From contig CANSFI010000017.1 of NCBI GenBank assembly GCA_947646095.1, positions 1-32,782 of the forward strand: 32,782 nt of DNA, given 5' to 3'. The DNA is from an uncultured Mycoplasmatota bacterium (GTDB taxonomy: Bacteria > Bacillota_I > Bacilli_A > RF39 > UBA660). Shown here one piece after another: positions 11,072 to 32,782 of the stretch (position 1 is its first letter; each line of letters begins with the position of its first letter). The notes below the pieces were generated by a model, which made no database searches, was not told where the DNA came from, and was given only the letters and a program-made list of their open reading frames with translations. A program made the translations under genes and the position numbers.

Positions 11072-11087
11072 CAAGGAGTAGATGAAG

Positions 11088-11858: not shown

Positions 11859-11882
11859 AGTTTTAATTTTATGTAAATTTAA

Positions 11883-11912
11883 TTGATTTCTATTATCTAA
11901 TAATGTTATAAT
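11883..11912 (+). promoter_or_regulatory. Promoter for the gene pair at 11939 and 12753
   Basis: TTGATT (11883–11888), 18-nt spacer, TATAAT (11907–11912). The following leader can fold attcct with aggaat over the ribosome binding site AGGAGG, a short hairpin of uncertain meaning. Confidence 0.65.
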
Positions 11913-11938
11913 AGTATTCCTTTAAAAGGAGGAATATT

Positions 11939-12745: not shown

Positions 12746-12752
12746 GTTAACA

Positions 12753-13466: not shown

Positions 13467-13489
13467 AACGAAATTTTATCGGTTTTTTT
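13465..13489 (+). terminator. Terminator of the 11939–13466 operon
   Basis: The arms aaaacga (13465–13471) and tcggtttt (13479–13486) pair with one bulged G around a 7-nt A/T loop and run into a T7 tract. The left arm overlaps the stop codon. Confidence 0.55.
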
Positions 13490-13494
13490 ATTTA

Positions 13495-13521
13495 AAAGTT
13501 GTGTTAAACATAATGACTGAT
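13495..13521 (+). repeat. Left terminal inverted repeat of the IS
   Basis: It begins aaagttgtgttaaac and ends atgactgat. It is the reverse complement of 14643–14669 except for two bases in the middle. Confidence 0.85.
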
Positions 13522-13586
13522 AAATAAAAAAGGCGTATAATTATATTAGCCAAACAAAAGATAAAGAAAGGATATTTTTATGTAAT

Positions 13587-14653
13587 ATGAAAATAGAAGA
13601 GTTGATAAAAGATCTAGATCCTGTAACTATTATTGAATTTAAAAGTTATATTCAGGATGTTAAATCGAGCATTTATCTGATTTATGTTTTACAAAAAATT
13701 CTAACTCAAAAGTAGTTTCTAAATTTAAAAATAAAGAAATGTTTTGTGAAAAATGTGGATGCAAACTATATAAAAATGGAAAAACAAAAAGTGGCATTCA
13801 AAAATATATCTGCAGTGGTTGTAAAATAACTTTATCAGAAACAACTAATACAATAATTTGTCATAGTAAATTACCTTTTGAAATATGGAGTAATGTAATT
13901 GATAATCTATTAAATGGATTTAGCTTAAGAAGAATTGCTGAAGAAAATAATATTTCACTTTTAATGTCATTTAGAGTAAGACACAAAGTATTATATGCTT
14001 TAAAAAGTTTCATAAAAAATATCAATTTATCTGGGAAAATACAATCAGATGAAAAATATTTTCCCATTAATTTGAAGGGAACAAAGAAGGAAAATATGCC
14101 AAGACATTCAAAAAAAAGAACTTCAACAAGTTCACCATATAGAGGTATTAGTCATCATAAAGTTTGTGTTGTTTCCAGTATAGATGAGAATGATAATTTA
14201 TTATTAAAAATAGTTGGTTTGGGTAGATGTACAACTGATATGTTAAAGAATTCACTAGGTCAAAAATTAAGTAATGCTAAATCAGTTAATGCTGATAGTG
14301 CAAGTGCCTATCAAGATTTTTGTAAAGAATATAATCTTGTATTAAATGCAATTCCTTCTGGATTTCATAGTGATGGTATTTTTAATATATCAGAGATAAA
14401 TGGAATTCATTCACAATTGGAAACGTGGTTTAGTAAATTTAAAGGTGTATCAACTAGACATTTGCAAGAATATCTTGACTGGTTTGTTTATATTTTTACT
14501 ATGAAAAAAAGATTCATGTTAAGTAAAATCAAAACAGAATCTTATTCTAAATTGCTAATAGACAATAATTATATTAAGTCCAAAGATATCTTCAATATTG
14601 AAATGCCCATTGATTTGAATGTTGCATATGCCGAATATCTCCATCAGTCATAA
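13587..14653 (+). pseudogene. IS1595-family transposase, interrupted by a -1 frameshift
   Basis: The start at 13587 opens a 42-codon frame (MKIEELIKDLDPVTIIEFKS...) that ends at TAG 13715. The rest of the protein is in the -1 frame, beginning about 13648 as IEHLSDLCFTKNSNSKVV and continuing through the ATG at 13739 to TAA at 14653. One extra A in gttaaatcg (13649–13657) would restore a ~355-residue protein, the normal length. Downstream are a zinc ribbon (CEKCG...CSGC) and the ISXO2-like DDE domain with SDEKYF, NADSASAY and NGIHSQLETWFSKFKG. The segment from 13739 alone (304 residues) keeps the zinc ribbon and catalytic domain. Whether the shift is inactivating or programmed cannot be decided; the slip site AAA is short, so loss is more likely. 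The last codons lie within the right inverted repeat. Confidence 0.75.
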
Positions 14654-14669
14654 AGTTTAACACAACTTT
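14643..14669 (-). repeat. Right terminal inverted repeat of the IS
   Basis: Its inner end atcagtcat overlaps the transposase stop region; its outer end is aacacaacttt. It matches the left repeat at 25 of 27 positions. Confidence 0.85.
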
Positions 14670-14680
14670 ATGCAAAATAA

Positions 14681-14699
14681 AAGAAGCATTATGCTTCTT
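14681..14699 (-). terminator. Terminator of pilB
   Basis: The arms aagaagca and tgcttctt pair perfectly around tta; on the minus strand this is followed by TTATTTT. It overlaps the pilB stop codon and lies 12 nt outside the right end of the IS. Confidence 0.65.
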
Positions 14700-16368
14700 C
14701 TTTATGTAAACTTTTAAGTAATTCATTAATATCAGCTAGAAGTTTTTCATTATCTTCAATACTAGAATCTTTATCAGAACTTCTAATATCTTTAGCGTGA
14801 TTAGTTTCTACTTTTTCTGTTGTAGATGTACTAGTTATATCATCACTATCTAACATATCAAAATCTTCATCTAATAAATACCTGTCTCTAACATTTGATT
14901 TTTCTTCATGAGAATCAAATGTATTATTAAAATTATCATTATCTGAATACTTATTAGTATTTTTTATATTAGTTTTTTTAATTTTTTTAGCAACATCAAT
15001 ATCATCTAACATAGCTTCTACTTCTTTAGCATATTTATCTATATCATTAGAATCTTTAAGTTCATTTGGTAAATCTTTTTTATTAATATTTTCTATTTTA
15101 TTTACTTTATCATTTTCACTTTCATGAGCAATATTAGTATAATTAATAGCTTCTTTTAAACTAGATTTCCCATAATTTTTATCATCGTCATCTAATTCAA
15201 TCAACTTTAATAATTCTTCGAAAGTAGTAAGACCATTTAAAACTTTTTCTAAACCATCTTGAAGTAGAGTAATAACATCAGATCTATATACTAATTCACG
15301 CAATTTTTCTTTTTTAATTCCACTACTAATAGCATCTTTAATTTCTTGATTAATTAAAAGTACTTCATGAATAGCAATTCTTCCTTTATATCCAGTTGAA
15401 CATTCATCACATGAATCAGCTGAATATATTTCATTAACATCTTTTCCAAGAATATCTTTAAATAATTTTTTTTCATATTCATTAGTTTTTCTTAATTTAC
15501 GACATTTAGGACATAAACGACGAGCTAATTTTTGAGAGATAATTCCAGTTAAAGCACTTGATAATAAATATCTTTCAACTTCCATATCAAGTAAACGTTC
15601 AATTGTATTTAATGAATCATTTGTATGGATTGTTGATAAAACTAAGTGACCTGTAATAGAAGCTCTAACAGCAATTTTAGCAGTTTCTGTATCACGAATT
15701 TCCCCAATCATTATAATGTTAGGGTCTTGACGTAAAATAGAACGTAGAGCAGTAGCGAAATCAAGACCAATTTCACTATTAGTTTGAATTTGGTTAACAC
15801 CTTCAATATCCATTTCTATTGGATCTTCAACAGTAATTATATTAGTATCCTCACGATTTAATTTTTGAAGTATTGAATAAACAGTAGTAGATTTACCACT
15901 ACCAGTTGCTCCTGTTACTAGAACAATACCATTAGGTACATTAATCATCTTTAAAACTTTTAAATAATTAGCTTCACTAAATCCTAAATGCTCTAAACCA
16001 CTTAAACTCATAGAATAATCCAAAATACGAATAACTACTTTTTCACCATTAATAATAGGAATAGCAGAAACACGGAGATCTAGATTAACATCTTTTAAAG
16101 TTGCTTTAATTGCTCCATCTTGAGGTAATCTATTCTCAGTAATATTCATTCCAGAAATAATTTTAATACGAGTTATCAAATTTTTCTTAACAGTATTAGG
16201 AATTTCAGCATAGTCATGTAAAGCTCCATCAATACGAATTCTAACTTTCATAAATTTTTCGTGTGGATCAAAGTGAATATCACTAGCGCCTCTCTTAGCA
16301 GCATCTACTAAGATATCATTAACTATTTCAACAATAGGCATTTTTTCAAAGTCAAATTTTTTTAACAT
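14689..16368 (-). CDS. pilB: Type IV pilus assembly ATPase PilB/GspE, shortened N-terminus and acidic C-terminal tail
   Basis: Hexameric ATPase that drives pilin polymerisation from the cytoplasm. 559 residues. It begins directly at the N2-type domain (IVNDILVDAAKRGASDIHFDPHE, residues ~15–37), so the N-terminal MshEN/N1 domain of most PilB/GspE proteins is missing. Walker A is GATGSGKST (153–161), the Asp box and Walker B run from EDPIEMDIEG to IIMIGEIRD (218–226), the His box is GHLVLSTIHTND (240–251), and the zinc tetracysteine is Cys286, 289, 320 and 323. After residue ~395 comes a ~160-residue Asp/Glu/Asn/Ser-rich tail not found in the usual family, probably disordered. The ribosome binding site AAGGGG is somewhat far (12 nt). 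It is read opposite to all other pilus genes. Confidence 0.95.
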   Translation of the reverse strand: MLKKFDFEKMPIVEIVNDILVDAAKRGASDIHFDPHEKFMKVRIRIDGALHDYAEIPNTVKKNLITRIKIISGMNITENRLPQDGAIKATLKDVNLDLRVSAIPIINGEKVVIRILDYSMSLSGLEHLGFSEANYLKVLKMINVPNGIVLVTGATGSGKSTTVYSILQKLNREDTNIITVEDPIEMDIEGVNQIQTNSEIGLDFATALRSILRQDPNIIMIGEIRDTETAKIAVRASITGHLVLSTIHTNDSLNTIERLLDMEVERYLLSSALTGIISQKLARRLCPKCRKLRKTNEYEKKLFKDILGKDVNEIYSADSCDECSTGYKGRIAIHEVLLINQEIKDAISSGIKKEKLRELVYRSDVITLLQDGLEKVLNGLTTFEELLKLIELDDDDKNYGKSSLKEAINYTNIAHESENDKVNKIENINKKDLPNELKDSNDIDKYAKEVEAMLDDIDVAKKIKKTNIKNTNKYSDNDNFNNTFDSHEEKSNVRDRYLLDEDFDMLDSDDITSTSTTEKVETNHAKDIRSSDKDSSIEDNEKLLADINELLKSLHKEEA

Positions 16369-16468
16369 AAGTTATTTCATCCCCTTTTTATAACTTTAGA
16401 CTAGCTTTTATTCTGAATATATTATATAATAGTTTAAGAATAATTACAACCTAAAAAGGAGAGATTTT
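16369..16468. promoter_or_regulatory. Divergent promoter region between pilB and the pilin operon
   Basis: TATAAT at 16425–16430 is a good plus-strand -10 box for the pilins, but the -35 position (16402–16407) is weak. AT-rich -10-like sites are also present on the minus strand for pilB, none convincing. A shared control region would couple ATPase and pilin supply; this is inference. AAAGGAGAG precedes the ATG at 16469. Confidence 0.4.
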
Positions 16469-16951
16469 ATGAAAAAAATGAATAATAAGGGGTTTATGCT
16501 TACGGAAACATTAATAGTTTCAACATTTTTAGTAACAACATTATTATTTATATATATGCAATTTAATACTGTAACTAATTCATATAATACAAGTTTTAAA
16601 TATAATACTGTAAATAGTATGTATGCCTTAAATAATATAGCTGATTATATTAAAACAGAGGAAATTGATAAATTAAAAAATGATTTAACTAATTCTGAAT
16701 ATATTGATATATCTAAATGTCCTAATACTTATTTTAAGGAAACAGAATATTGTCAAGTATTATTTGAAACATTAAAAGTAAAAACAGTTATATTTACCTT
16801 AGAAAATTTAAAAGAATTAAAAAGTAAACAAACTGATTTAGATCAGACTATAGTAGATTTTATAGATTATTTGAACTATGATCAAACTGATGGATATAGA
16901 GTAATTGCAGAATTTAATGATAACACATTCGCAAGTTTAAAAGTAGAGTAG
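16469..16951 (+). CDS. Minor pseudopilin with prepilin signal
   Basis: 160 residues. The short positive leader MKKMNNKG is followed by FMLTETLIVSTFLVTTLLFIYMQF, a type IV prepilin signal: cleavage would be after Gly8, Glu is at mature position 5, and a single hydrophobic helix follows. The mature domain is small (about 120 residues), with two cysteines (ISKCPNT, EYCQV) that could pair. It begins the pilin operon; the next pilin starts 8 nt after its TAG. Likely a minor pilin that helps initiate or cap the filament. I do not see a more specific family. Confidence 0.85.
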   Translation: MKKMNNKGFMLTETLIVSTFLVTTLLFIYMQFNTVTNSYNTSFKYNTVNSMYALNNIADYIKTEEIDKLKNDLTNSEYIDISKCPNTYFKETEYCQVLFETLKVKTVIFTLENLKELKSKQTDLDQTIVDFIDYLNYDQTDGYRVIAEFNDNTFASLKVE

Positions 16952-16959
16952 GTGAAAAA

Positions 16960-18513
16960 ATGAATAAAAAAGGGTTTACTGTTGTAGAATTAATCGTATC
17001 TTTTTCTTTAATTTCTTTAATTGTTGCACTTTTATTTCAGGTAATATTTATTTTAAAAGATTTATACACTGATTCAGGTATTAGAACAGAACTTCTAACT
17101 AAACAAGCAATAATAAGCGAAAAAATAAACGATGAACTTACCAATAAAACATTAGTGTATGCTAATAAATGTGGTAATAATTGTATCAATTTTGCTTTTA
17201 GTGATGGAAGCATGAGTGAATTATCTTTTAATAGAGATGATAATACATTTAAATATGGAGATTATAAAACAAAATTAATAAGTGGTAGTATATATGGTAA
17301 TATTAATATTTCAACAGAAACAATTGTTGGAGTAAGTACAGGTAGAAATAATTCTATTGTTAAAATAAATATACCTATTTATCATAAGTTATTTAAAAAA
17401 GAAGATTATGGTATTAATATAGCTTATCAATATGACAATAGACTTACAGCTATTTCAGGATTATTTGTATCAGATGTTTTAGATTCAGAAAAAAGGGTAT
17501 ATCTAATAGGAAATTCTAATGACATAGCTTTTACAGGAATCAATTATAATGATCCAGGATATTTTGTTGTAGATGGTAAAGGAAATATAATAGAAGATGA
17601 TAATTCAGTTGTTGTAAGTGGTAATGTAGGTAGTGAAGTTGGAAAAACTTATACAATCACTTATACTATATTAGATAGTAATGAAAATATAATGAGTACA
17701 GCATCACGTAATGTAACAGTTATTGATAGTATTACAACTTTTAATTATAATGGTGATATTCAAACCTTTAAAGCTCCAATTAATGGATTATATAAAATAG
17801 AAGTATGGGGAGCACAAGGAGGAACTGTTGGAAGTCAAGCTGTTGGTGGTAAAGGTGGCTATACAACAGGACAAATTAATTTAACTAAAAATACTACTTT
17901 AAACATTTATGTTGGTGGTCAAGGAAGTTTTGATAAAAATAAATCAGTATCAGGTGGTTTTAATGGTGGAGGTAAATCTGGATATGGTAGTGATACTTCA
18001 GGTGCATCTGGTGGTGGTGCTAGTGACGTTAGAAATGGTAATGAATTAAGTAACAGGATTATAATTGCTGGAGGAGGTGGCGGAGCTGGAAGTAGAAACG
18101 AATCATCTGATCCTTCAAATGGAGGAGCAGGTGGTGGAATTAATGGTTTAATTGGTTCTTATTCAACAATCTCTTATAATGGTAGTCCTGGGACATCTTC
18201 AAATGGAGGAGCACATGCTACTTATAACACTAATATAACTTCTAATCCTACAGCTGGATCTTTAGGAATTGGTGGAAATGGAGGAAGTTACTCTGATACT
18301 TATGGAGGAGGTGGCGGTGGAGCTGGCTACTACGGTGGTGGCGGCGGAGTTCGTTATGGCTCTGGTGCTGGAGGTAGTGGATATTGTGGCTCTATGTTAA
18401 ACTGTACCACTTATGATGGAAGTAAATCATTTCCTTCTGCAAATGGTTCTAATGAAACTGGTCATAGTGGTAATGGAGTTGTTAAAATAACTTTAATAAG
18501 CGTTACAAATTAA
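16960..18513 (+). CDS. Large pseudopilin with Ig-like segment and ALK/LTK-like glycine-rich domain
   Basis: 517 residues. The prepilin signal is MNKKG|FTVVELIVSFSLISLIV with Glu at mature position 5. A pilin-like stretch extends to about residue 165. A bacterial Ig-like, DUF5011-type segment follows, with the typical opening LIGNSNDIAFTGINYNDPGY near 183 and ending ASRNVTVID. From residue ~265, TFNYNGDIQTFKAPINGLYKIEVWGAQGG marks the glycine-rich domain otherwise known from ALK/LTK receptor tyrosine kinases and many bacterial surface proteins (PF12810-like). Its Gly runs (GGGGGAG, GGGGGVRYG) are compatible with a polyglycine-II helix bundle, and two cysteines (YCGSMLNC) lie near the end. Too large for a major pilin, it is a good candidate for a filament-tip or surface-binding subunit. 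Gly codons raise local GC. Confidence 0.88.
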   Translation: MNKKGFTVVELIVSFSLISLIVALLFQVIFILKDLYTDSGIRTELLTKQAIISEKINDELTNKTLVYANKCGNNCINFAFSDGSMSELSFNRDDNTFKYGDYKTKLISGSIYGNINISTETIVGVSTGRNNSIVKINIPIYHKLFKKEDYGINIAYQYDNRLTAISGLFVSDVLDSEKRVYLIGNSNDIAFTGINYNDPGYFVVDGKGNIIEDDNSVVVSGNVGSEVGKTYTITYTILDSNENIMSTASRNVTVIDSITTFNYNGDIQTFKAPINGLYKIEVWGAQGGTVGSQAVGGKGGYTTGQINLTKNTTLNIYVGGQGSFDKNKSVSGGFNGGGKSGYGSDTSGASGGGASDVRNGNELSNRIIIAGGGGGAGSRNESSDPSNGGAGGGINGLIGSYSTISYNGSPGTSSNGGAHATYNTNITSNPTAGSLGIGGNGGSYSDTYGGGGGGAGYYGGGGGVRYGSGAGGSGYCGSMLNCTTYDGSKSFPSANGSNETGHSGNGVVKITLISVTN

Positions 18514-18530
18514 AATATTTATATTATAAA
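18502..18530 (+). promoter_or_regulatory. Possible promoter of the variable pilin gene
   Basis: GTTACA (18502–18507), 17-nt spacer, TATAAA (18525–18530). The 16 bases ending in this box (18514–18529) are identical to the stretch before the -10 boxes of the WG-repeat genes (for example 27620–27635). A second TATAAT lies at 18554, and the ribosome binding site AGGAG follows. Confidence 0.4.
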
Positions 18531-18583
18531 ATACTTTATTTATAAAAATAATTTATAATTAATAAAGATAGGAGAATTAAAAA

Positions 18584-19543
18584 ATGAAAAAGAAAGGATT
18601 TACACTTATAGAATTACTCGCTGTAATAATAATACTATCTATAATAGCCCTAATTACAGTACCAGTAATAATGAATATAATAGAAAGAGCTAATAAGAGT
18701 GCATTTAAAGATTCAGCCTATGGAATAATAAAAGCAGGAGAATTACATTATGCAGATAAATTATTAACTACTGAGGGAATGACAAATGATATAACATTCA
18801 CATTTCCAGATGCAACAGGACTAGATATAAAAGGATCAAGACCAAAGAGTGGAAATATGAAAGTAACAAAAGAAGGAAAAATAGAATTAGCTATAACAAA
18901 TGGAATATGTGAAAAGGGAACAAAGCTAAATGTAAAAGTAAATGATACAGAAAACTATGATTTCTATGTAATAGATGATACAAATGGAGAACTAACATTA
19001 CTAATGAATAAAAATATAGGTGATGGAGTTGATTGGATAACAAACTGGGATTATAAAGACATTGGAGGAACAAATTGGCCTTCTCATAATCGTAGTGGTG
19101 CAAATGATATGGGACCAATAACTGCCCTAAACTATTTAGAAGACCAAACAAAAGAATGGACAAATATACCAACATATGATTATACATTAGAAGATGATAA
19201 ACCATCAAAATTTGAACAAGAAAGTGATTCAAAAGCAATGTACCAACCAATTAAAAGAACCAATGTAAGAGCAAGACTACCAAAATTATCAGATATAGAA
19301 GATTTAATAGTACTAGATTTCGAAAATAAAAACCAACCAATGACAATGCCAAAATATTTATATGAAAATCTAAGTGAATCAAATACAAAAGAACAATCAT
19401 ATATGTATTGGTTATCAACTGCGAGCTCCGATAGCTCCAGTGAAGGCTTTGGTGTGTACGATGGGGATGTCGCCATCGGTGGCGTTAGCTATAGCTTCAA
19501 TGGAGGAGTCCGCCCAGTTATAAAAATATCTAAAAGTCTATAA
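18584..19543 (+). CDS. Pilin-like protein with hypervariable C-type-lectin-like C-terminus (candidate DGR target)
   Basis: 319 residues; AGGAG is 9 nt before the ATG. The N-terminus MKKKG|FTLIELLAVIIILSIIALI is a textbook type IV prepilin signal. The pilin-like segment (to ~residue 80) is followed by an all-beta looking middle with WITNWDYKDIGGTNWP, then a domain that resembles DUF6273 / the C-type lectin fold: RTNVRARLPKLSDI, YWLSTA, GGVRPVIKI at the very end. Residues ~281–306 are encoded by a GC-rich tract that differs almost completely from the left-edge paralog, while flanking codons are nearly identical. The stop overlaps the end of the convergent ylbJ by 6 nt. By analogy with DGR targets, the variable residues would line an exposed binding face displayed on the pilus; this is inference from sequence pattern alone. 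Confidence 0.88.
   Translation: MKKKGFTLIELLAVIIILSIIALITVPVIMNIIERANKSAFKDSAYGIIKAGELHYADKLLTTEGMTNDITFTFPDATGLDIKGSRPKSGNMKVTKEGKIELAITNGICEKGTKLNVKVNDTENYDFYVIDDTNGELTLLMNKNIGDGVDWITNWDYKDIGGTNWPSHNRSGANDMGPITALNYLEDQTKEWTNIPTYDYTLEDDKPSKFEQESDSKAMYQPIKRTNVRARLPKLSDIEDLIVLDFENKNQPMTMPKYLYENLSESNTKEQSYMYWLSTASSDSSSEGFGVYDGDVAIGGVSYSFNGGVRPVIKISKSL
19406..19528 (+). other. Candidate DGR-type variable region (copy 2) with flanking conserved borders
   Basis: The variable tract 19424–19501 (26 codons) lies between a left border at 19406–19423 and a GC-rich right border at 19508–19528. GC is about 56% over 19418–19513 by hand count, against roughly a quarter around it; 23 of 26 codons end in C or T, 13 of them in C. 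Relative to copy 1 it is two codons shorter, with no codon gap in the last ~18. The identical 21-nt right border would correspond to an initiation-of-mutagenic-homing-like element. No template repeat is seen in the window. Confidence 0.5.
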
Positions 19544-21595: not shown

Positions 21596-22519
21596 ATGAA
21601 AACAAAGTCAAAAGAAGAGCAATTAGAAATTAATCAATTGTACTTGGATGAAATAGGAAGAATACCTTTATTAACACCAGAACAGGAAAAAGAATTGGTT
21701 TTAAAAATTAATCAAGGTGATGGAAGTGCTAAAAAGAAACTTATGGAAAGTAATTTAAGATTAGTAGTATCAATTGCTAAAAAATATGTAGGTAGAGGTA
21801 TGTTGTTTCTAGATTTAATTCAAGAAGGGAATTTAGGTCTTATAAAAGCAGTAGAAAACTATGATATAAATAGAGGTAAATTTTCTTCATATGCTGGTAC
21901 TATAATTGAAAAGGAAATAAAAAGATCATTTGCTAGAAAAAACAACAATATTACAATGCCAATACAGGAATATGAAACTTTTGTTAAGTATAAGGCAATA
22001 GTAGCTTCTTTAAGTACAGATTATAGAAAACCAACTAACGAAGAAGTCGCACAAAAAATGAATATATCTATTTCTAAAGTTGAAGAATTAGAAAAAATCA
22101 AAATAAATACAATCAGTTTAAACCAAATTATTTATAGTGAAGATGGAGACGAAATAGGAACAAAAAAAATTATGTCAGATGATGAAATATCAACGGAAGA
22201 AATGGCTATCAATAACTTATTATCAGAACAACTTTATAAACTATTTAATGATTGCAATTTAACTAATCAAGAATATAAATTTGTATTACTTAGATTTGGT
22301 TTCGAGGGTAATCCAATGAGTAAAGAGGGTATAGGAAAAGTACTTGGTGTAACTAGTACTCGTGTTAGGCAAATAGAAAAACAAGCATTAAAAAAATTTA
22401 GAAAATTTAAAGAAACTAAATATTTAGTTGATTACACAGAAAATCCAATCGAAGCATTAAAAAATCTAGAATATTTTCAAAAAGAGTATTCTAAATCAAA
22501 AAGAAAAACAAAAAAATAA
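21596..22519 (+). CDS. Alternative sigma-70 family factor, tandem paralog 1
   Basis: 307 residues; AGGGGGAATAGA precedes the ATG. Region 1.2 (LYLDEIGRIPLLTPEQEKEL) and region 2 ([38 protein letters not shown]) closely follow SigA. The melting segment differs: Sig[15 protein letters not shown] becomes YAGTIIEKEIKRSFAR, so both tryptophans are lost and the helix looks more like sporulation/stress sigma factors (compare IENEI of SigE/SigK). A region 3-like segment (DYRKPTNEEVAQKMNISISKVEEL) and region 4 (VLLRFGFEGNPMSKEGIGKVLGVTSTRVRQIEKQAL) follow, then a ~35-residue basic tail. Codons ~72–163 are identical at DNA level to paralog 2. It probably directs a special regulon; which one cannot be read here. 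Confidence 0.85.
   Translation: MKTKSKEEQLEINQLYLDEIGRIPLLTPEQEKELVLKINQGDGSAKKKLMESNLRLVVSIAKKYVGRGMLFLDLIQEGNLGLIKAVENYDINRGKFSSYAGTIIEKEIKRSFARKNNNITMPIQEYETFVKYKAIVASLSTDYRKPTNEEVAQKMNISISKVEELEKIKINTISLNQIIYSEDGDEIGTKKIMSDDEISTEEMAINNLLSEQLYKLFNDCNLTNQEYKFVLLRFGFEGNPMSKEGIGKVLGVTSTRVRQIEKQALKKFRKFKETKYLVDYTENPIEALKNLEYFQKEYSKSKRKTKK
21810..22085 (+). repeat. 276-bp block identical to 22778–23053 (sigma paralogs)
   Basis: Compared by eye base by base: no difference over 276 bp, with an abrupt return to divergent sequence on both sides. It encodes the late region 2 and region 3 part of both sigma factors. This is a direct repeat with a 968-bp period. Confidence 0.9.
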
Positions 22520-22563: not shown

Positions 22564-23757
22564 ATGCTTAATAATTTAGAAAATAGTCAGTTAGAAGCTC
22601 TTAAATTATATTTAGATGAAATAGGAAGAATACCTTTATTAACACTAGAACAAGAACATGAATTAATTTTAAAAATTAATCAAGGCGATGAAAGTGCTAA
22701 AAAGAAATTTATAGAAGGCAATTTAAGATTAGTAGTTACTATTGCTAAAAAATATTTAAATAGAGGAATTGATTTTTTAGATTTAATTCAAGAAGGGAAT
22801 TTAGGTCTTATAAAAGCAGTAGAAAACTATGATATAAATAGAGGTAAATTTTCTTCATATGCTGGTACTATAATTGAAAAGGAAATAAAAAGATCATTTG
22901 CTAGAAAAAACAACAATATTACAATGCCAATACAGGAATATGAAACTTTTGTTAAGTATAAGGCAATAGTAGCTTCTTTAAGTACAGATTATAGAAAACC
23001 AACTAACGAAGAAGTCGCACAAAAAATGAATATATCTATTTCTAAAGTTGAAGGATTAGAACAAATTAAAATAGATACTATTAGTTTGAATTATTTAATA
23101 TCTAATGATGATAAAACAGATACAGAAGTAGAAAAATTTATTTCATTAGAAGAAATGTCACTAGAAGATATAGTTATTAAAAATATGTTATCAGAACAAA
23201 TATATAAATTATTTAAAGAAAGCAATTTAAAAGATAGAGAAATTGAAGTTTTAATACTTAGATTTGGATTTAAAAATAATCCTATGACACTAGAACAAGT
23301 AAGTAAAATATTTAATTTATCACTAGAACGTATACGACAAATAGAGACTAAAGCATTGAGAAAACTTAGAGATTGTAAATATACTAAATATTTAGTTGAT
23401 TACACAGAAAATCCAATTGAAGCATTAAAAAATCTAGAATCTTATCAACTGGGTAATAATAAATGTTCAACGAAGGGACAATATAAATCTATAACTAAAA
23501 AACCAATGTTAACTCTAGAAACAATTTATCAATATTTTGATCAAAATACTAAGGAAGAGATAGATACAATGTTGCAAAAATTATCTGATGATGAACTAAA
23601 TTTAATTAAATTGCGTTCTGGCAAGTTAACTAAAGAACAATCAATAAAATTTTATGGAAGTTTAATTCCTAAAATGAAAAATATGTTAAAAAAACCTAAT
23701 AATCAACTTTTAAAAAGTGAAAGATTACAAAAAGAAAAACGATATGTTAAAATATAA
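22564..23757 (+). CDS. Alternative sigma-70 family factor, tandem paralog 2, with C-terminal extension
   Basis: 397 residues; AGGAGG is 8 nt before the ATG, 44 nt after paralog 1. The domain order is as in paralog 1: [50 protein letters not shown], the identical block with YAGTIIEKEIKRSFAR in place of the SigA melting helix, and region 4 (VLILRFGFKNNPMTLEQVSKIFNLSLERIRQIETKALRKL). Region 4 differs clearly from paralog 1, so the two could read different -35 sites with the same -10 contacts. After the shared TKYLVDYTENPIEALKNLE tail there is an extra ~100-residue segment (TLETIYQYFDQNTKEEIDTMLQKLSDDELNLIKL) not seen in paralog 1 and not recognised. It is followed after 17 nt by a frameshifted gene. 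Confidence 0.85.
   Translation: MLNNLENSQLEALKLYLDEIGRIPLLTLEQEHELILKINQGDESAKKKFIEGNLRLVVTIAKKYLNRGIDFLDLIQEGNLGLIKAVENYDINRGKFSSYAGTIIEKEIKRSFARKNNNITMPIQEYETFVKYKAIVASLSTDYRKPTNEEVAQKMNISISKVEGLEQIKIDTISLNYLISNDDKTDTEVEKFISLEEMSLEDIVIKNMLSEQIYKLFKESNLKDREIEVLILRFGFKNNPMTLEQVSKIFNLSLERIRQIETKALRKLRDCKYTKYLVDYTENPIEALKNLESYQLGNNKCSTKGQYKSITKKPMLTLETIYQYFDQNTKEEIDTMLQKLSDDELNLIKLRSGKLTKEQSIKFYGSLIPKMKNMLKKPNNQLLKSERLQKEKRYVKI
22778..23053 (+). repeat. 276-bp block identical to 21810–22085 (sigma paralogs)
   Basis: Second copy of the direct repeat, in the same reading frame and at the same codons (~72–163) of the second sigma gene. Confidence 0.9.
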
Positions 23758-24620: not shown

Positions 24621-27164
24621 ATGAAACGTAGTGAAGTAGACAGAAGCAAGGTTACACCAATGATGCAACAATACCTAGAAATTAAAGATGCTAATCCTGA
24701 TGTAATAATATTTTTTCGATTAGGTGATTTTTATGAAATGTTTTTTGAAGATGCTATAATTGCATCTAGAGAATTAGAGCTAACTTTAACAGGTAAGAAT
24801 GCTGGACTTGATGAAAGAATTCCAATGTGTGGAGTTCCACATCATGCAGCTAATATATATATAGAAAAATTAACAGAAAAAGGTTATAAAGTAGGTATTT
24901 GTGAACAGATGGAAGATCCTAAAAATGTTAAAGGAATTGTCAAAAGAGATTTAACTCAAATAGTTAGTATTGGAACTGTTATAGATAATGATTCTTTAAA
25001 AGAGAATGATTTTAATTATATTGGTAATATAGTTGATTTTAATCATGCTTATGGTTTATCTTATATGGATGTATCAACAGGCATTATATATGTTACTTTA
25101 ATAGAATATAATATAACTAAATTAGTAAGTGAAATAGTAAGTAACAATATCAAGGAAATTATAATGACTGATAAAGTTGATAAAAGTATTTATAATATAT
25201 TAAAAAATCAATTTAGAATTACTATAACAATTACTAATAATATTGAAGATATAAAAGAATATAATTATATATATGAAGATATAGAAGATATAAGATATAT
25301 AGAAACAATTAAACATTTACTTACATATATAAAAGAAACACAAAAAAGAAATTTATCACATCTTCAAAAAGCTATTATAAAAGAAAATAATAAATATTTA
25401 AAAATGGATATTCATACTAAAAGAAATTTAGAATTAACAGAAACATTGAGATTAAAAGAAAGAAATTTCTCTTTAATTTGGTTACTTGATAAAACAAAAA
25501 CAGCTATGGGTTCTCGTATGCTTAAAAATATGTTAGAAAATCCTTTAATAGATAAAGATGAAATAAATAAAAGATATGATGTAGTTGAAACGTTATTAAA
25601 AGAATTTATCTTAAAAGAAGAATTACAAAACTATTTATATGAAGTATATGACTTAGAACGTTTGAGTGGTAGAATTGCCTATGGAAGTGCGAATGCTAGA
25701 GATTTATTACAACTTAAAAAGTCTTTAAAAGTATTACCTAATATAAAAGAAATAATCGATAAAATAAACTTTTATCATACTTTTAATCCAATAGATGAAC
25801 TATATAATTTATTAGAAGAAAGTATATATGAAAATCCACCAATTGGAATTAAAGAAGGCTATTTAATTAAAGAAGGTTATAATAGTGAATTAGATGAATT
25901 AAAATCTTTAAGAAAAGGTGGTAAAGATTTTGTAGCTAGATTTGAATCAGAAGAAAGAGAAAAAACAGGTATCAAAAATTTAAAAGTTGGCTACAATAAA
26001 GTTTTTGGTTATTATATCGAAATATCAAAAGGAAATGCTTCTTTAGTAAAAGAAGAATATGGATATGAAAGGAAACAGACCCTGAGCAATTGCGAAAGAT
26101 ATATAAGTCCCATATTAAAAGAAAAAGAAGCTTTAATTTTGAATGCTGAAGAAAAAATAGTTGAACTTGAATATCAATTATTTGTAAGTATTAGAGAAAA
26201 AATAAAAGAATATATTCCTCGTCTTCAAGAAATATCTAAAGTAATAAGTGAAATAGATGTATTAGCTTCCTTCACAACTGTTAGTGAAAATAACAATTAT
26301 GTCAGACCTAAATTAATAGATGAAAGAATTGTAAAAATAATTGATGATAGACACCCTGTAATAGAAAAAGTAATGACTGGTGAATATGTTCCTAATGATA
26401 TTATTATGGATGAAAATACAAACATATTACTTATAACTGGTCCTAATATGGCTGGTAAATCAACTTATATGAGGCAAATGGCCATAACTGTTATAATGGC
26501 ACAAATAGGATGTTTTGTTCCAGCAAATAGCGCTACTTTACCTATTTTCGATCAAATATTTACAAGAATTGGTGCTAGTGATGATTTAGTTAGTGGTGAA
26601 TCAACTTTCATGGTAGAAATGACTGAAGCAAACAATGCTATTAGTAATGCTACTAGTAATAGTTTAATTTTATTTGATGAATTAGGAAGAGGAACAGCCA
26701 CATTTGATGGTATGGCTTTAGCGCAATCTATTATCGAATATATTCATGAACATATTAAAGCTAAAACATTCTTTTCTACCCATTATCATGAACTAACTGA
26801 TTTAGAAGATAATTTAAGTAATCTTAAAAATATTCATGTCAGTGCTTATGAAGAAAATGGCAACATAACTTTTTTACACAAAATAAAAAATGGTAGTGTC
26901 GATCGTAGTTATGGAATTTATGTCGCTAAACTAGCTAAACTTCCAAATGAACTTATAAAAAGAGCAGATCAAATATTAAAAATTTATGAAAATACTGAAA
27001 GAAAAAGAGATATTAAAATACAAGAAGAACTTCCTATCGAAGATTTGATTCCTAAAAAAAGTATTGTAGAAGAGGAAATAGAAAAAATCAATCCTTTAGA
27101 AATAACTCCAATGGAAGCTTTAAATATTTTGTATAAATTAAAAGAAGAAGTAAAAAATAAATAA
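24621..27164 (+). CDS. mutS: DNA mismatch repair protein MutS
   Basis: Recognises mismatches and small loops in newly replicated DNA. 847 residues, full family length. The mismatch-reading Phe-x-Glu is in GDFYEMFFEDA (Phe37, Glu39), after MMQQYLEIKDANPD. The ABC ATPase domain has Walker A GPNMAGKSTYMRQMA (~605), the signature/switch segment ASDDLVSGESTFMVEM, Walker B ILFDELGRGTATFDGMALA and FSTHYHELTDLE. The TATFDG form replaces the usual TSTYDG, a mild change. The C-terminal tail carries ITPMEALNILYKLKEE. AGGTGG precedes the ATG. mutL is not adjacent; instead a small membrane protein gene follows after 10 nt. Confidence 0.98.
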   Translation: MKRSEVDRSKVTPMMQQYLEIKDANPDVIIFFRLGDFYEMFFEDAIIASRELELTLTGKNAGLDERIPMCGVPHHAANIYIEKLTEKGYKVGICEQMEDPKNVKGIVKRDLTQIVSIGTVIDNDSLKENDFNYIGNIVDFNHAYGLSYMDVSTGIIYVTLIEYNITKLVSEIVSNNIKEIIMTDKVDKSIYNILKNQFRITITITNNIEDIKEYNYIYEDIEDIRYIETIKHLLTYIKETQKRNLSHLQKAIIKENNKYLKMDIHTKRNLELTETLRLKERNFSLIWLLDKTKTAMGSRMLKNMLENPLIDKDEINKRYDVVETLLKEFILKEELQNYLYEVYDLERLSGRIAYGSANARDLLQLKKSLKVLPNIKEIIDKINFYHTFNPIDELYNLLEESIYENPPIGIKEGYLIKEGYNSELDELKSLRKGGKDFVARFESEEREKTGIKNLKVGYNKVFGYYIEISKGNASLVKEEYGYERKQTLSNCERYISPILKEKEALILNAEEKIVELEYQLFVSIREKIKEYIPRLQEISKVISEIDVLASFTTVSENNNYVRPKLIDERIVKIIDDRHPVIEKVMTGEYVPNDIIMDENTNILLITGPNMAGKSTYMRQMAITVIMAQIGCFVPANSATLPIFDQIFTRIGASDDLVSGESTFMVEMTEANNAISNATSNSLILFDELGRGTATFDGMALAQSIIEYIHEHIKAKTFFSTHYHELTDLEDNLSNLKNIHVSAYEENGNITFLHKIKNGSVDRSYGIYVAKLAKLPNELIKRADQILKIYENTERKRDIKIQEELPIEDLIPKKSIVEEEIEKINPLEITPMEALNILYKLKEEVKNK

Positions 27165-27174
27165 GGAGGTCTTT

Positions 27175-27561
27175 ATGAATTTATTAAAACGTGAAAATTG
27201 GTGGATTTGGTTACTTATTACTTTAACATCTGGAGGTAGTAGTGTAATAGTATTAGGTGCTTTACTTGATTGTTTTGATTCTAATGCTTGGTATGCTAAT
27301 TGGAAAAATTGGTTATTAGGTTTTCTATGCTTTATTTTTCCATTTACAATAATGATAGCAGTATTCAATATTGAATTATTAGTACAATCAGCCGCTAAAT
27401 TAGAAGTTCCAGGTAAAGAAATATATCTTTCACCTTATATATGGATTTTATGTTTAATTATACCTATTATTGGATGGATTATGTTTATAGTAATGATGTT
27501 ATATTTAGAAATATGGGTTATAGTTTCTTTATATAAAGGAAATGCTGAAAAATATATTTAA
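27175..27561 (+). CDS. Small hypothetical membrane protein
   Basis: 128 residues; AAGGAGG is 6 nt before the ATG, itself 10 nt after mutS. Three hydrophobic segments are visible: IWLLITLTSGGSSVIVLGALL (~12–32), WLLGFLCFIFPFTIMIAVF (~46–64) and ILCLIIPIIGWIMFIVMMLY (~91–110). Tryptophan-rich (WWIW, WYANWKNW). I do not recognise a family. It is probably read through from mutS; the following terminator at 27561 closes the unit. Confidence 0.75.
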   Translation: MNLLKRENWWIWLLITLTSGGSSVIVLGALLDCFDSNAWYANWKNWLLGFLCFIFPFTIMIAVFNIELLVQSAAKLEVPGKEIYLSPYIWILCLIIPIIGWIMFIVMMLYLEIWVIVSLYKGNAEKYI

Positions 27562-27607: not shown

Positions 27608-27636
27608 TTGTCTAAAATAAATATTTATATTATAAT
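27608..27636 (+). promoter_or_regulatory. Promoter of WG-repeat gene 1
   Basis: TTGTCT (27608–27613), 17-nt spacer, TATAAT (27631–27636). The spacer and -10 sequence are repeated before the other two WG-repeat genes. Confidence 0.75.
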
Positions 27637-27659
27637 AAAGCTTATTTAAGGGTGATACT

Positions 27660-29354
27660 ATGTTAGAAGAATTAATAAAAGAAGAATACAAAAAATATTT
27701 AGAAAGTATTTTTGATGTAGATAAAGAAAATAAATTTATTGAAAGTATTATCGACAATAAGAGAAAAGAAACGAATGATGATGAATTAAATAAAAATAAA
27801 ACTGTTTTAAATAACTGTATAGTGTTTCATTTTTCAGAAGGATTTGCTCTAGTATATGATGAAACTAGAACTAAACGTTATAATTTTATAGATAAAGAAG
27901 GAAATTTAATTTCAGACAACTGGTATAGTGATGCTTCGAGTTTCCATGAAGGATATGCTAGAGTACGTTTCGGTAATGTGCCTTATGCTGGTTATAATTT
28001 TATAGATAAAAATGGTAATTTGTTATTAGAAAAAAATTATTTTAGGGCAGATGATTTTTGTAATGGTTATGCTATAGTAGCTGATTTAAATGAGTCAAAG
28101 ATATTCGAATATAATATCCTCGATAAAAGAGGTAACTTTCTTTTAAAAGAATGGACTAAATCAACATTTTATAATCATCTTGACAGGGGATATGTTTATG
28201 AAATTGATCAAAATATGTATATAAATTTGCTAGGAGAAAAAGTTCCTGATTTATCACCTACAACATTTATTTATAGTGATGGCTATAAAGTTCTTGAAAG
28301 TAATAATATGGCTTATCTATTAGATGAATACAATGATATTATAATGCAAGCTGAAATTTTAATGAATAGATTGTTTGAGTCAGATATTCCAAATTTATGT
28401 TGGAGATATTTAACTAAAGAATCTATTGAAAAGAAATTTTTGTTTTATGAATATAAAATTGATGAAATGACTTATAAATTAAAATATGAACCAATTTTTA
28501 ATTACAATAATTTTATTCTTTGTAAAAAAAATACAAAATACTATTTATATGATAAAAATAATAAAAAATATATATTAATTTCAAATAAAGAAATAAAATA
28601 TGGTAGAAACTATCTAGAATTTGAAGGTAAAACTTACTTTTTAATAGATAAACTTATTGATGTTACAGGAATTAATGTAAATAATAGTCTAGAATTAAAA
28701 GAAAATATAGATGAAGTATTAGAATTAGAATTAGAAGAATTTGAAGATAAGTTTTTAACTAAAGAGTTTTATGAAGATGCAATGAAAAAAATAGAAAAAT
28801 CAAATGAAGATGATAAAAAACAACAAATGGAAGAATTAAAACAAAAATTAATAGGGAAAGCTAAACAACAAGAAGAATTAAAAGTAAAAGAATTAGAAAC
28901 GCTAGAGAAAGAATTAGCGAATTCTTTAGATGTTTTTGTAAAAAAATCTTCAAATTTTCAAAATAAATTGCAAGTTTCAAAAAATAGTAATACAAAAATT
29001 AAAGAACGTATATCAGAAGAAATGTTATTTATAAAAGTAGATGAACATTTAGAAATAAGACCAGAATTTTTACAAAGTAATATCCTTAGATACTTTGATT
29101 TAGCATTCATATCATTTGATAATGTTAAAGTAAGTGGAATAGACTTATCTTATACAAATGTTAATATAAATCCTCAAACAGTATATAATAAAGATATGAG
29201 TAATGGAAACTATAGTGGACTTAATTTTACTAATAAAAATTTTGAAGGAGTTAATACTACTAACTCTATATTTAATGATTGTATATTTGATTTTACAGAT
29301 AATATTAATTTAAATGAAGAATTAAATAAAGTTAAAACTATTAATAAGATTTAA
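27660..29354 (+). CDS. WG-repeat protein 1 with pentapeptide-like C-terminus
   Basis: 564 residues; AGGGTGAT precedes the ATG. A conserved ~25-residue head (MLEELIKEEYKKYLESIF) is shared by all three genes of the array. Then come about four WG (KWG-type) repeats, with the core F-x-(E/N)-GYA followed by YNFIDKEGN (residues ~57–180). A non-repeat middle follows (YKLKYEPIFNYNNFILCKK, ISNKEIKYGRNYLEFEGKTYFL), then a Lys/Glu coiled coil (~375–450), and a C-terminal segment (SGIDLSYTNVNINP, NGNYSGLNFTNKNFEGVN) with the five-residue periodicity of pentapeptide repeats. No signal peptide or membrane segment, so cytoplasmic as far as can be seen. WG repeats are thought to form beta structures for protein binding; the function here is unknown. 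Confidence 0.85.
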   Translation: MLEELIKEEYKKYLESIFDVDKENKFIESIIDNKRKETNDDELNKNKTVLNNCIVFHFSEGFALVYDETRTKRYNFIDKEGNLISDNWYSDASSFHEGYARVRFGNVPYAGYNFIDKNGNLLLEKNYFRADDFCNGYAIVADLNESKIFEYNILDKRGNFLLKEWTKSTFYNHLDRGYVYEIDQNMYINLLGEKVPDLSPTTFIYSDGYKVLESNNMAYLLDEYNDIIMQAEILMNRLFESDIPNLCWRYLTKESIEKKFLFYEYKIDEMTYKLKYEPIFNYNNFILCKKNTKYYLYDKNNKKYILISNKEIKYGRNYLEFEGKTYFLIDKLIDVTGINVNNSLELKENIDEVLELELEEFEDKFLTKEFYEDAMKKIEKSNEDDKKQQMEELKQKLIGKAKQQEELKVKELETLEKELANSLDVFVKKSSNFQNKLQVSKNSNTKIKERISEEMLFIKVDEHLEIRPEFLQSNILRYFDLAFISFDNVKVSGIDLSYTNVNINPQTVYNKDMSNGNYSGLNFTNKNFEGVNTTNSIFNDCIFDFTDNINLNEELNKVKTINKI

Positions 29355-29371
29355 GAAATTAAGTCTTTTTT
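29346..29371 (+). terminator. Terminator of WG-repeat gene 1
   Basis: aagatttaa (29346–29354) pairs with ttaagtctt (29359–29367) over 9 bp (one G·T) around the tetraloop gaaa, followed by T residues. The left arm contains the stop codon. Confidence 0.7.
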
Positions 29372-29372
29372 C

Positions 29373-29401
29373 TTGTTTAAAATAAATATTTATATTATAA
29401 T
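29373..29401 (+). promoter_or_regulatory. Promoter of WG-repeat gene 2
   Basis: TTGTTT (29373–29378), 17-nt spacer, TATAAT (29396–29401). It starts within the terminator tail of gene 1, so each gene is a self-contained unit. Confidence 0.75.
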
Positions 29402-29424
29402 AAAGCCTATTAAAGGGTGATACT

Positions 29425-32268
29425 ATGTTAGAAGAATTAATAAAAGAAGAATATAAAAAATATTTAGAAAGTATTTTTGAAGTAGATAAAGAAAATGAAT
29501 TTATTGAAAAAATTATTAGTAATAAATTAGATCAAAATAATAACGATTGTTTTTATCATAATATTAGATTTGATAAAAAACCGCCTATATTTTTTCTGCA
29601 ACTAGTCAAAGCAATAAAATTGAAACCTGATAATTTTAATTTACGAAATTTTTCTTGTGGACTTGCAGTAATTGAAAATGATAATGATTATAACAAATAT
29701 AATTTTATAGATAAGGAAGGTAATTTATTATTAGATAAATGGTTAGATTATGCTGATGATTTTAGTGAAGGTTATGCTTCATTTATGATAAATAATAAAT
29801 GGAATTTTATAGATAAAGAAGGTAATCAATTATTAGAAGAATGGTTGAATTATGCAAAAAGATTTAGTGAAGGCTATGCTACAGGTAGAATCGGTAATAA
29901 AAATGTTGTTATTGATACAGAAGGTAATATAATTGCAGAAAGTTATGAAAAGTATGATGAAACAGTAGGTCCTTTTTTTAATGGCCATGCTAGATTTAAA
30001 AAGGAAGGCAAATATGGTTTTGTCAATCTAAAATTACAAGAAGTTGGTTACTATGATTATGCTTGGCATTTTAGTGAAGGTTATGCTCAAGTAAAAATTA
30101 ATAATAAGTGGTATTTTATTAATACAAATATCGAATTAGCGTCTAATCAATACTACGAAGAAACTGAAAACTTTTGTAATGGCTATGCTATAGTCAAAAA
30201 AAACAATAAATGGAATTTTATTGATAAAAGCCATAATTTAATTTTAAAAGAAGGAATTGATTGTGACCAATTATACAGTTTTTATGATGGATATGCTAGA
30301 ATATATGATAAATCTAAAGGTTATAATTTTATAGACAAAACAGGAAAATTGTTATCAGAAGAATGGTATGATTATGCTGATAATTTTAGTGAAGGGTACG
30401 CTGTTGTTAAAAAAAATAATAAATGGAACTTTATTGATACTAATGGAAACTTATTATCTAGAAATTGGATATTTTGTGATAATATGCTAAGTTTTTATGA
30501 GGGGTATGCTCAAATAGAACAAAATAAAAAATGTAATTTTATAGATAAAAAGGGAAAATTAATATTTCGAAATTGGTATATTCATGCGAGTAATTTTCAT
30601 GACGGATATACTATTATTAGAAATAATAATGGTCTTAATTATATCAATTCAAAAGAAGAATTACTCTTAAAAAATCAATATTTTTACAAATGTGTATTTA
30701 ATGATGGATATACTATAGTAGAAAATCATATTGGTAAATATAATTTTGTTGATATTAATGGAAATTTGTTATTGAAAAAATTTTATTATACTGTTAAAAC
30801 TTTTCATAATGGATATGCTGCTATAAAAGAAGATAATAAATGGAGGTTTATAAATAAGGAAGGAAATTTTATATCTAATGATTATTATGACGAAGTAGGC
30901 AATTTTTATGAAAAACGTGCTTGGGTAAAAATAAATAACAAGTATAATTTTATAAATACTGAAGGTGATTTGATATCTAAAAAATGGTATGATTATGCTG
31001 ATCTTTTCTCTTGTGGTATAGCACGAGTAGGGAAAAAACAGCCCTTCAGTTCAAAAATGGGGTATAATTTTATTAATAAAAGAGGAGAACTATTATTAGA
31101 TGAATGGAATTTTGGTTCTAAATTCCAAATTAATTATAATTCTGCACCAATTGATGATACAATAAATATAGTATTTCTTTATAATAATGGATATAAAATA
31201 ATGCAAAATGGTAATACAGTTTATTTATTAGATGATTATAATGATATTATAATGCTTTCTAATTCAAATGAAAAAATAAAAGAAGAAGATATTTTAAAGT
31301 TAAAATGGAAAGCAATTATTGATTCTAAAAAAGTAAAAAATAACTTTTTCTCTTTTGAATATAATGATGATAATATAACTTATAAACTAAAATATGAACC
31401 AGTTTATAACTATAATAACTTTATCCTTTGTAAAAATGAAGAAAAATATTATTTATATAGTAAATCTAAAAATGATTATACTTTTATTTCAAATAAAGAA
31501 ATAAAATATGGTAAAAACTATTTAGAATTTGAAGGTCATACTTATTTTATAACAGATGAACTTGTTGAGGTTACAGGAATAAAAGTAAGTAGTAGTTTAG
31601 AATTAAAAGATAATATAGAAGAAATATTAGAAATAGAGGAATTTAAAGATAAATACTTAAATGGCGAATTTTATGAAAATGCTTTAGGTAAAGTAGAAAA
31701 ATCAAATATAGATAATAAAAAACAAGAATTAGAAAATATAAAAAAAATACTAGCTAAATTTTCTATAAAAAAAGAAGAACAAAGATTAGAAAAAATAAAA
31801 GAACTTAATGATAGATTAAACAGTTCAGCTGAAACTTTATTAAACAGTTTTACAAATTTTTTAAATATACAAAAAGAGTTAGAACAATTAGATAATCCTA
31901 ATGTAGAAATCAAAAAAATGTATATATCAGAGGAAATGTTATTTATAAAAATGAATGATCATCTAGAAATAAATCCATTGTTTTTACAGATTAATTTTTT
32001 AAGATACTTTGATTTAACACTAATATCATTTACTAATGTTAAAATAAGTGGAATAGACTTATCTTATACAAATGCTAATATAAATCCTCAAACAGTATAT
32101 AATAAAGATATGAGTAATGGAAACTATAGTGGACTTAATTTTACTAATAAAAATTTTGAAGGAGTTAATACTACTAACTCTATATTTAATGATTGTATAT
32201 TTGATTTTACAGATAATATTAATTTAAATGAAGAATTAAATAAAGTTAAAACTATTAATAAGATTTAA
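29425..32268 (+). CDS. WG-repeat protein 2, long form with about 14 repeats
   Basis: 947 residues. The head is nearly identical to gene 1 (MLEELIKEEYKKYLESIFEV). I count 14 WG repeats between residues ~70 and ~570, each about 35 residues: a F-x-(E/D/N)-GYA turn, a variable strand, then (W/Y)NFID-x-x-GNLL and a Trp/Tyr-rich link (WYDYADNFSEGYAVV). The post-repeat part matches gene 1 (YKLKYEPVYNYNNFILCK, ISNKEIKYGKNYLEFEGH), followed by a coiled coil (KKEEQRLEKIKELNDRL) and the same pentapeptide-like C-terminus; the last ~63 codons are identical in DNA. AGGGTGAT precedes the ATG. It differs from gene 1 mainly by repeat number. No export signal is seen. Confidence 0.88.
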   Translation: MLEELIKEEYKKYLESIFEVDKENEFIEKIISNKLDQNNNDCFYHNIRFDKKPPIFFLQLVKAIKLKPDNFNLRNFSCGLAVIENDNDYNKYNFIDKEGNLLLDKWLDYADDFSEGYASFMINNKWNFIDKEGNQLLEEWLNYAKRFSEGYATGRIGNKNVVIDTEGNIIAESYEKYDETVGPFFNGHARFKKEGKYGFVNLKLQEVGYYDYAWHFSEGYAQVKINNKWYFINTNIELASNQYYEETENFCNGYAIVKKNNKWNFIDKSHNLILKEGIDCDQLYSFYDGYARIYDKSKGYNFIDKTGKLLSEEWYDYADNFSEGYAVVKKNNKWNFIDTNGNLLSRNWIFCDNMLSFYEGYAQIEQNKKCNFIDKKGKLIFRNWYIHASNFHDGYTIIRNNNGLNYINSKEELLLKNQYFYKCVFNDGYTIVENHIGKYNFVDINGNLLLKKFYYTVKTFHNGYAAIKEDNKWRFINKEGNFISNDYYDEVGNFYEKRAWVKINNKYNFINTEGDLISKKWYDYADLFSCGIARVGKKQPFSSKMGYNFINKRGELLLDEWNFGSKFQINYNSAPIDDTINIVFLYNNGYKIMQNGNTVYLLDDYNDIIMLSNSNEKIKEEDILKLKWKAIIDSKKVKNNFFSFEYNDDNITYKLKYEPVYNYNNFILCKNEEKYYLYSKSKNDYTFISNKEIKYGKNYLEFEGHTYFITDELVEVTGIKVSSSLELKDNIEEILEIEEFKDKYLNGEFYENALGKVEKSNIDNKKQELENIKKILAKFSIKKEEQRLEKIKELNDRLNSSAETLLNSFTNFLNIQKELEQLDNPNVEIKKMYISEEMLFIKMNDHLEINPLFLQINFLRYFDLTLISFTNVKISGIDLSYTNANINPQTVYNKDMSNGNYSGLNFTNKNFEGVNTTNSIFNDCIFDFTDNINLNEELNKVKTINKI

Positions 32269-32285
32269 GAAATTAAGTCTTTTTT
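32260..32285 (+). terminator. Terminator of WG-repeat gene 2
   Basis: Same 9-bp hairpin with gaaa loop and T tail as after gene 1, within the identical block. Confidence 0.7.
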
Positions 32286-32286
32286 C

Positions 32287-32315
32287 TTGTTTAAAATAAA
32301 TATTTATATTATAAT
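32287..32315 (+). promoter_or_regulatory. Promoter of WG-repeat gene 3
   Basis: TTGTTT (32287–32292), 17-nt spacer, TATAAT (32310–32315), identical to the promoter of gene 2. Confidence 0.75.
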
Positions 32316-32338
32316 AAAACCTATTCAAAGGTGATATT

Positions 32339-32782
32339 ATGTTAGAAGAACTAATAAAAGAAGAATATAAAAAATATTTAGAAAGTATTTTTGATGTAGA
32401 TAGTGGGAATAAATTTATTGAAAAAATTATTAATGGTAAATTAAAAGAAGATACAGAAGAAGAGAGTATTATCTTACTTTTTGATAAAAAACCTAAATAT
32501 GATTTTAAAGATTTAAAAGAAGAAATCACTCTAAATTTAGATTATGGTTTAACAAAGAATTTTCAAGAAGGGTGTGCTAAAGTATATTTCAAAGCAGGTG
32601 ATAACTTTATAAATAAGCAAGGCAGACTTATTAGTGGTATATGGTATGATAGAGCTTCTGATTTTCATGGAGGTTATGCTGTAGTAAAAAAAAATAAGAA
32701 ATATAATTTTATAGATAAAGAAGGAAAAAAATTATCTAGAATATGGTATGACTGTGCATTAGATTTTTGTGGAGGTTATGCT
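32339..32782 (+). CDS. WG-repeat protein 3, 3' truncated by window edge
   Basis: 148 codons are visible and the frame is open at the edge. The start is after AAAGGTGAT, as in its siblings. The head MLEELIKEEYKKYLESIFDV matches genes 1 and 2; residues ~26–70 are unlike either of them. WG repeats then begin (FQEGCAKVYFKAGDNFINKQG, FHGGYAVVKKNKKYNFIDKEG, FCGGYA at the edge), so at least three repeats are present. The array therefore continues to the right of the window. Confidence 0.85.
   Translation, partial: MLEELIKEEYKKYLESIFDVDSGNKFIEKIINGKLKEDTEEESIILLFDKKPKYDFKDLKEEITLNLDYGLTKNFQEGCAKVYFKAGDNFINKQGRLISGIWYDRASDFHGGYAVVKKNKKYNFIDKEGKKLSRIWYDCALDFCGGYA

Follow-up and report, generated by a model that had tools for sequence, protein, structure and literature searches.

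Among bacteria with small genomes, a close described case of homologous copies with common parts that recombine is that of mgpC and MgPar in Mycoplasma genitalium; the available part of the account (PMC2169797) describes an expressed gene of the adhesion operon together with partial donors, and variation both in culture and in a patient. Two protein families are also close to the genes discussed here, the WG-repeat proteins (PF14903) and the pentapeptide proteins (PF00805). Judged by titles and the beginnings of abstracts, no paper found on bacterial WG repeats deals with tandem arrays of this kind. Literature searches found nothing linking WG repeat-containing proteins, tandem arrays and recombination, nothing pairing the WG repeat with the beta-propeller or with the pentapeptide repeat, and nothing on RF39 with pentapeptide repeats.

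The stretch of DNA analysed (the window, 32,782 nucleotides) comes from an uncultured bacterium of RF39, a group of Bacilli with highly reduced genomes according to the available part of one report (PMC6784871). It ends in a row of WG-repeat genes (Table 1). As in M. genitalium, homologous copies with common parts are found in a small genome. In contrast to mgpC/MgPar, as far as the available account goes, the copies here are complete tandem genes without an export signal, and they are known from sequence alone.

The row of at least three WG-repeat genes that the earlier note described is borne out by three open reading frames, which score 37.6, 170.1 and 39.9 bits against PF14903 (WG_beta_rep; gathering score 25.6). 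They pass the curated cut-off as PF14903 proteins do, but differ in that their WG region is joined to a C-terminus of helix and cap, which no NCBIfam model matches above its cut-off. A purpose-made unit profile counts 3 WG units in WG1, 14 in WG2 and at least 3 in the cut WG3, so that the earlier count of about 4 to about 14 was right within one. No frame is broken in the parts of the array genes that are seen. Promoter-like sites are no commoner than in shuffled sequence. A terminator scan found none at the ends of the array genes; of the shared terminator claimed before, there remains an AT-rich stem with a T-run, seen by eye only. As to a role in anti-phage defence, the PADLOC models at E 0.01 gave no match for WG1, WG2 or the related gene on contig C37 (see below), and absence from that library excludes nothing.

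Table 1. Features of the WG-repeat array and its left neighbours (positions in the window).
Feature	Position	Strand	Basis
mutS, conserved left neighbour	24621..27164	+	Pfam MutS_I-V; protein 86% identical in sister species G001
128-aa membrane protein gene	27175..27561	+	G001 ortholog, then nusB after 90 bp
WG1 promoter/5'UTR: TTGTCT-17-TATAAT, then AAGGGTGAT	27608..27659	+	ribosome site by eye
WG1, 564 aa, 3 WG units and shared C-terminal region	27660..29354	+	ORF list, Pfam, unit profile
Conserved helical heads (WG1; others)	27660..27764; 29425..29529, 32339..32443	+	comparison and predicted helix
WG units in WG1	27879..28154	+	unit profile
Shared C-terminal region of WG1: beta part, coiled coil, cap	28266..29351	+	
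WG1 long helix, predicted coiled-coil stalk (aa 368-439)	28761..28976	+	structure model
WG1 pentapeptide-like cap	29016..29270	+	cap profile E 5e-39 (WG1 itself among the sequences used to build the profile); pLDDT about 90
Identical block, copy 1: WG1 end to -10 region of WG2	29162..29404	+	
WG2 promoter/5'UTR	29373..29424	+	upstream comparison
WG2, 947 aa, 14 WG units	29425..32268	+	ORF list, Pfam, unit profile
WG units in WG2	29698..31107	+	unit profile
Shared C-terminal region of WG2	31174..32265	+	
Identical block, copy 2: WG2 end to -10 region of WG3	32076..32318	+	
WG3 promoter/5'UTR	32287..32338	+	upstream comparison
WG3, first 148 aa, open at contig end	32339..32782	+	ORF list

How alike are the ends of these genes? 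WG1 and WG2 do have the common C-terminus and the identical block claimed for them: the longest exact block is 243 bp and runs from the coding tail across the spacer as far as the -10 region of the gene that follows. The tail of the C37 gene is shared exactly over 209 bp with WG1 and 231 bp with WG2, and identity stops 16 bases past the stop codon. Codon alignments were made for the three pairs formed by WG1, WG2 and the C37 gene; every pair agrees fully over the final 60 codons (60/60 residues and 60/60 codons). Nucleotide identity is 82-83% in the preceding 60 codons and 63-68% in the remainder of the genes, where 144/191, 137/174 and 196/264 of the codons for the same residue are identical. 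Within the shared C-terminal region, the longest runs of identical codons are 63, 63 and 70, against maxima of 21, 25 and 22 in 10,000 shuffles. When a stricter shuffle considered same-residue codons only, the runs were 83, 82 and 84, lengths that 0, 0.05 and 0% of shuffles reached. With the last 66 codons set aside, agreement at same-residue codons is 131/158, 129/150 and 148/178. The common head and promoter reported earlier proved to be similar rather than identical, with 49/52, 46/52 and 48/52 matching bases upstream of the start codons (88-94%) and 93/105, 89/105 and 95/105 over the first 105 coding bases (85-90%).

Because the identity takes in silent sites and untranslated bases, selection on the protein alone does not explain it. 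As in tandem paralogs with concerted evolution of their ends, the tract is more alike than the rest of the genes, silent sites included. That the gene ends were recently homogenised by recombination in the junction repeat is well supported by these comparisons.

Have the middles of the genes been exchanged as well? WG units from the same gene have a mean identity of 0.390 (123 pairs) and those from different genes 0.415 (228 pairs); best-matching units lie mostly at other positions, the last unit excepted. Since the units are about 40% identical whether they come from one gene or from two, the difference between 3 and 14 units is old, and a recent unit expansion as its cause is rejected. Outside the tail and junction, the exact pieces that the C37 gene shares with the window genes are only 26-36 bp. 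The proposal that such an array expands, shrinks or swaps central repeats by recombination between shared ends therefore stands in part: the ends are recently homogenised and the middles differ, but the genomes compared (one per species) gave no sign of a recent change in repeat number or a central swap.

The proteins are probably cytosolic, judging from their sequences. In a hydropathy scan, which is crude, neither a signal peptide nor a membrane segment was found in WG1, WG2, WG3 or the C37 gene; the highest 19-residue values are 1.08, 1.09, 0.16 (cut WG3) and 1.16, respectively, and that of the neighbouring membrane protein is 2.91. The structure model of WG1 (mean pLDDT 69, 16 sequences) starts with a helical head, goes on with beta repeats and another beta part, and has the long helix at residues 368-439 before a compact cap whose pLDDT is near 90. 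The WG2 model has a mean pLDDT of 57, and its WG region is beta throughout. Fold searches mostly list beta-propellers, with low TM-scores: the best Z is 9.6 for WG2 (rmsd 11.6 over 301 residues) and 7.7 for WG1, which is within background (rmsd 6.0 over 173 residues). On these comparisons a propeller-like WG region is likely, but no more than a lead. A sequence search of solved structures gave weak matches only (E 0.0026 or worse), and the VIA-align lists contain no solved pentapeptide protein, an absence that excludes nothing.

Where does the array end, and how did it arrive? The window covers all of contig C17, in a genome of 1.38 Mb and 46 contigs. Its right edge is therefore an assembly break, by which the incomplete WG3 was cut. 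Contig C37 (L010; 5,629 bp) carries a WG gene that is cut at its 5' end and has 700 codons, 9 units and the matching tail; it is followed by a 139-aa gene, nusB and xseA, the last two named from sequence. No overlap joining C17 to C37 was found. Sister species G001 has mutS followed by the gene for a 129-aa membrane protein, nusB and xseA, the gap between the membrane-protein gene and nusB being about 90 bp, and the G001 genome has no match to the array C-terminal region and none to PF14903. The two sister species thus differ in the presence of the array. Because the G001 junction lacks it, the two contigs are most simply the two sides of a single insertion of at least three genes, which would lie between the mutS-linked membrane-protein gene and nusB. 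WG3 and the C37 gene, both of them cut, may be parts of a single gene or two separate genes. The earlier note had called for the genes to be counted on the right flank; C37 most simply supplies that other side, nusB-xseA, and the count stays at three or more.

On C37, the 139-aa gene (L010 2628-3047, minus strand), for which no Pfam match was found at E 0.05, lies between the array and nusB and is missing at the sister locus. Past xseA, a helical-repeat gene (L010 1-777, minus strand) reaches the contig end; it has 2.4 copies of 210-bp units that are 97% alike, and is a second, more recent repeat expansion at the array site.

The C-terminal region occurs in 21/193 genomes of the window's own bacterial family, the window genome included. 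A 15-sequence model of the region matched 37/288 genomes from the order and 4/296 from the class, and every genome that it matched belongs to this family. In a scan of named genomes, query A4 found 27 loci and query A1 found none. The 27 loci are in MAGs labelled Erysipelotrichaceae, Bacilli, Firmicutes, Clostridiales, Tenericutes or Mycoplasmatota, and the isolate names RUG, Goat_Omasum and Lapin suggest animal guts. A cap profile picked up 44 ORFs in 26/27 of these loci, with two or more in a row at 6/27. At E 1e-4, 25 of the 44 cap proteins match pentapeptide repeats, 5 WG, 1 LRV and 1 HTH_3; because cap proteins match pentapeptide, WG or LRV families, one cap appears to serve several scaffolds.

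Are the array proteins then pentapeptide proteins? The window cap aligns with the C-termini of the PF00805-matching proteins, and the homologue L045 itself matches PF00805 (25.1 bits versus the 20.2 cut-off). The cap also weakly matches designed 'beta1' chains (E 0.028-0.064), which we take to be beta-solenoid designs. Unlike PF00805 proteins, the window cap is short and terminal, and genes 1-3 match no pentapeptide family at E up to 0.1, which leaves them outside PF00805. L045 (G153, RUG13868) is a close WG-plus-cap relative over its full length; genes that look relaxase-like and RepA-like by eye are nearby, so that it may travel on a mobile element. A virus or plasmid origin was rejected: 4 phage and 24 plasmid records are below 60% identity, none covers 80% of the protein, and the C-terminal region has no relative in viral contigs. 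In the window genome (G000), the array is not quite the sole WG site, since one further match lies outside it (C2:80237-80332, 1 unit in a 518-aa open frame); there are also two further cap-like matches, on C2 and C3.

Homogenised ends are not a general design of such arrays. Clear tail homogenisation is found in 1/8 of the other cap arrays compared, namely the five tandem genes of genome G040 (L083), which have pentapeptide middles and are 86-96% identical in their tails and 61-67% elsewhere. A milder bias is seen in two pairs at L094 (tail 0.79 and 0.86 versus rest 0.62 and 0.60) and in a pair at L096 (0.71 versus 0.59; silent identity only 20/42). No tail bias stands out in the cap arrays L100, L102, L054, L046 and L098, the WG arrays without cap (L121, L122 and L123) have no strong tail bias, and all six G191 genes have no common 25-mer; the gapped tail comparison of the cap arrays left aside the open ORF of L102, the third of L096 and further G191 ORFs. 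The conclusion on design follows from the lack of clear bias in 7/8 of the other cap arrays and in the three WG arrays without cap. PF14903 is present in 34/193 genomes of the window's family. On the sequences compared, tandem WG arrays are ordinary in the family and homogenised tails are a special case, clear in two lineages.

Both homogenised arrays lie near mutS, one small gene away in G000 and 2.8 kb away in G040 (C2; L041, L058), and in G191 (C13, L042) the WG array and a gene read as mutL are about 5 kb apart. The cap genes of G046, G058, G102 and G153 are not on the contig that carries mutS. The closeness of arrays to mutS is possibly chance.

What could keep the ends alike? The best account, to which we would give an even chance, is a tandem array of binding proteins with a constant base and a variable head, in which recombination at the junction repeat maintains the likeness of the ends. 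Each protein would begin with a short helical head, continue with variable WG beta-repeats and a beta part, and finish with a long helix followed by a pentapeptide-like cap. The ends would be kept alike, and whole genes could be added or removed, through unequal crossing-over or RecA-type gene conversion in the junction repeat of about 0.4 kb (tail, spacer and head), and the WG regions would diverge slowly. More tentatively, the constant helix and cap might let the paralogs form the same, perhaps mixed, oligomer, and the WG regions might bind different partners, from which we infer that the array could be a small repertoire of binding proteins. The simplest rival, nearly as likely, is that gene conversion occurred incidentally in a duplicated array: the tandem duplication would be ordinary, and the identical ends would have arisen as a side effect of direct repeats lying close together, without a selected part in making a repertoire. 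The tandem WG or cap arrays that recur in the family, mostly without homogenised ends, fit this possibility, as do middles that show no recent exchange. It accounts less well for G040, where alike tails go with different middles of another repeat type, the cap having been kept alike in both genomes.

The similarity of the tails might also have been produced by the assembly, either by merging tails that were similar but not identical into one consensus or by misjoining the gene order across the 243-bp repeat. Contigs do break inside the array, and the contig crosses an exact repeat that exceeds usual short-read k-mers. However, differences right beside the identical blocks are preserved, the tail occurs on a second contig as well, with a flank of its own there, the G040 tails carry scattered differences, and the sister gene order fits the flanks of both contigs, all of which makes an artefact quite unlikely, although assembly may still have had some influence on how exact the identity is. 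Constant ends, variable repeats and gut-associated relatives would suit a family of surface antigens or adhesins that recombination varies, as happens in host-associated relatives with reduced genomes. This is highly improbable, because no signal peptide or membrane segment was found and a surface-exposed product is not indicated by the hydropathy scan; nor do the three window copies form a set of silent donors with one expression site, each having its own start codon, ribosome-site-like sequence and similar upstream region, unlike a silent donor. A bolder and rather doubtful idea is that helix plus cap is an interchangeable base for WG, pentapeptide and LRV scaffolds, gene-converted caps co-assembling an intracellular recognition repertoire with differing heads.

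Small-genome gut Bacilli retain large repeat-protein arrays despite their genome size. The common cap offers a handle for finding and classifying array proteins, and homogenised junctions predict that long reads would show a variable gene number and a constant cap sequence.

Upstream of the array, two adjacent ORFs of the window (21596-22519 and 22564-23757) have a common sigma-70-like opening by eye and are an apparent tandem duplicate. Further upstream, at 11082-19543, are prepilin-peptidase-like, ATPase-like and pilin-like ORFs, also named by eye; such a cluster, for competence or a type IV pilus, could be a source of DNA for recombination.
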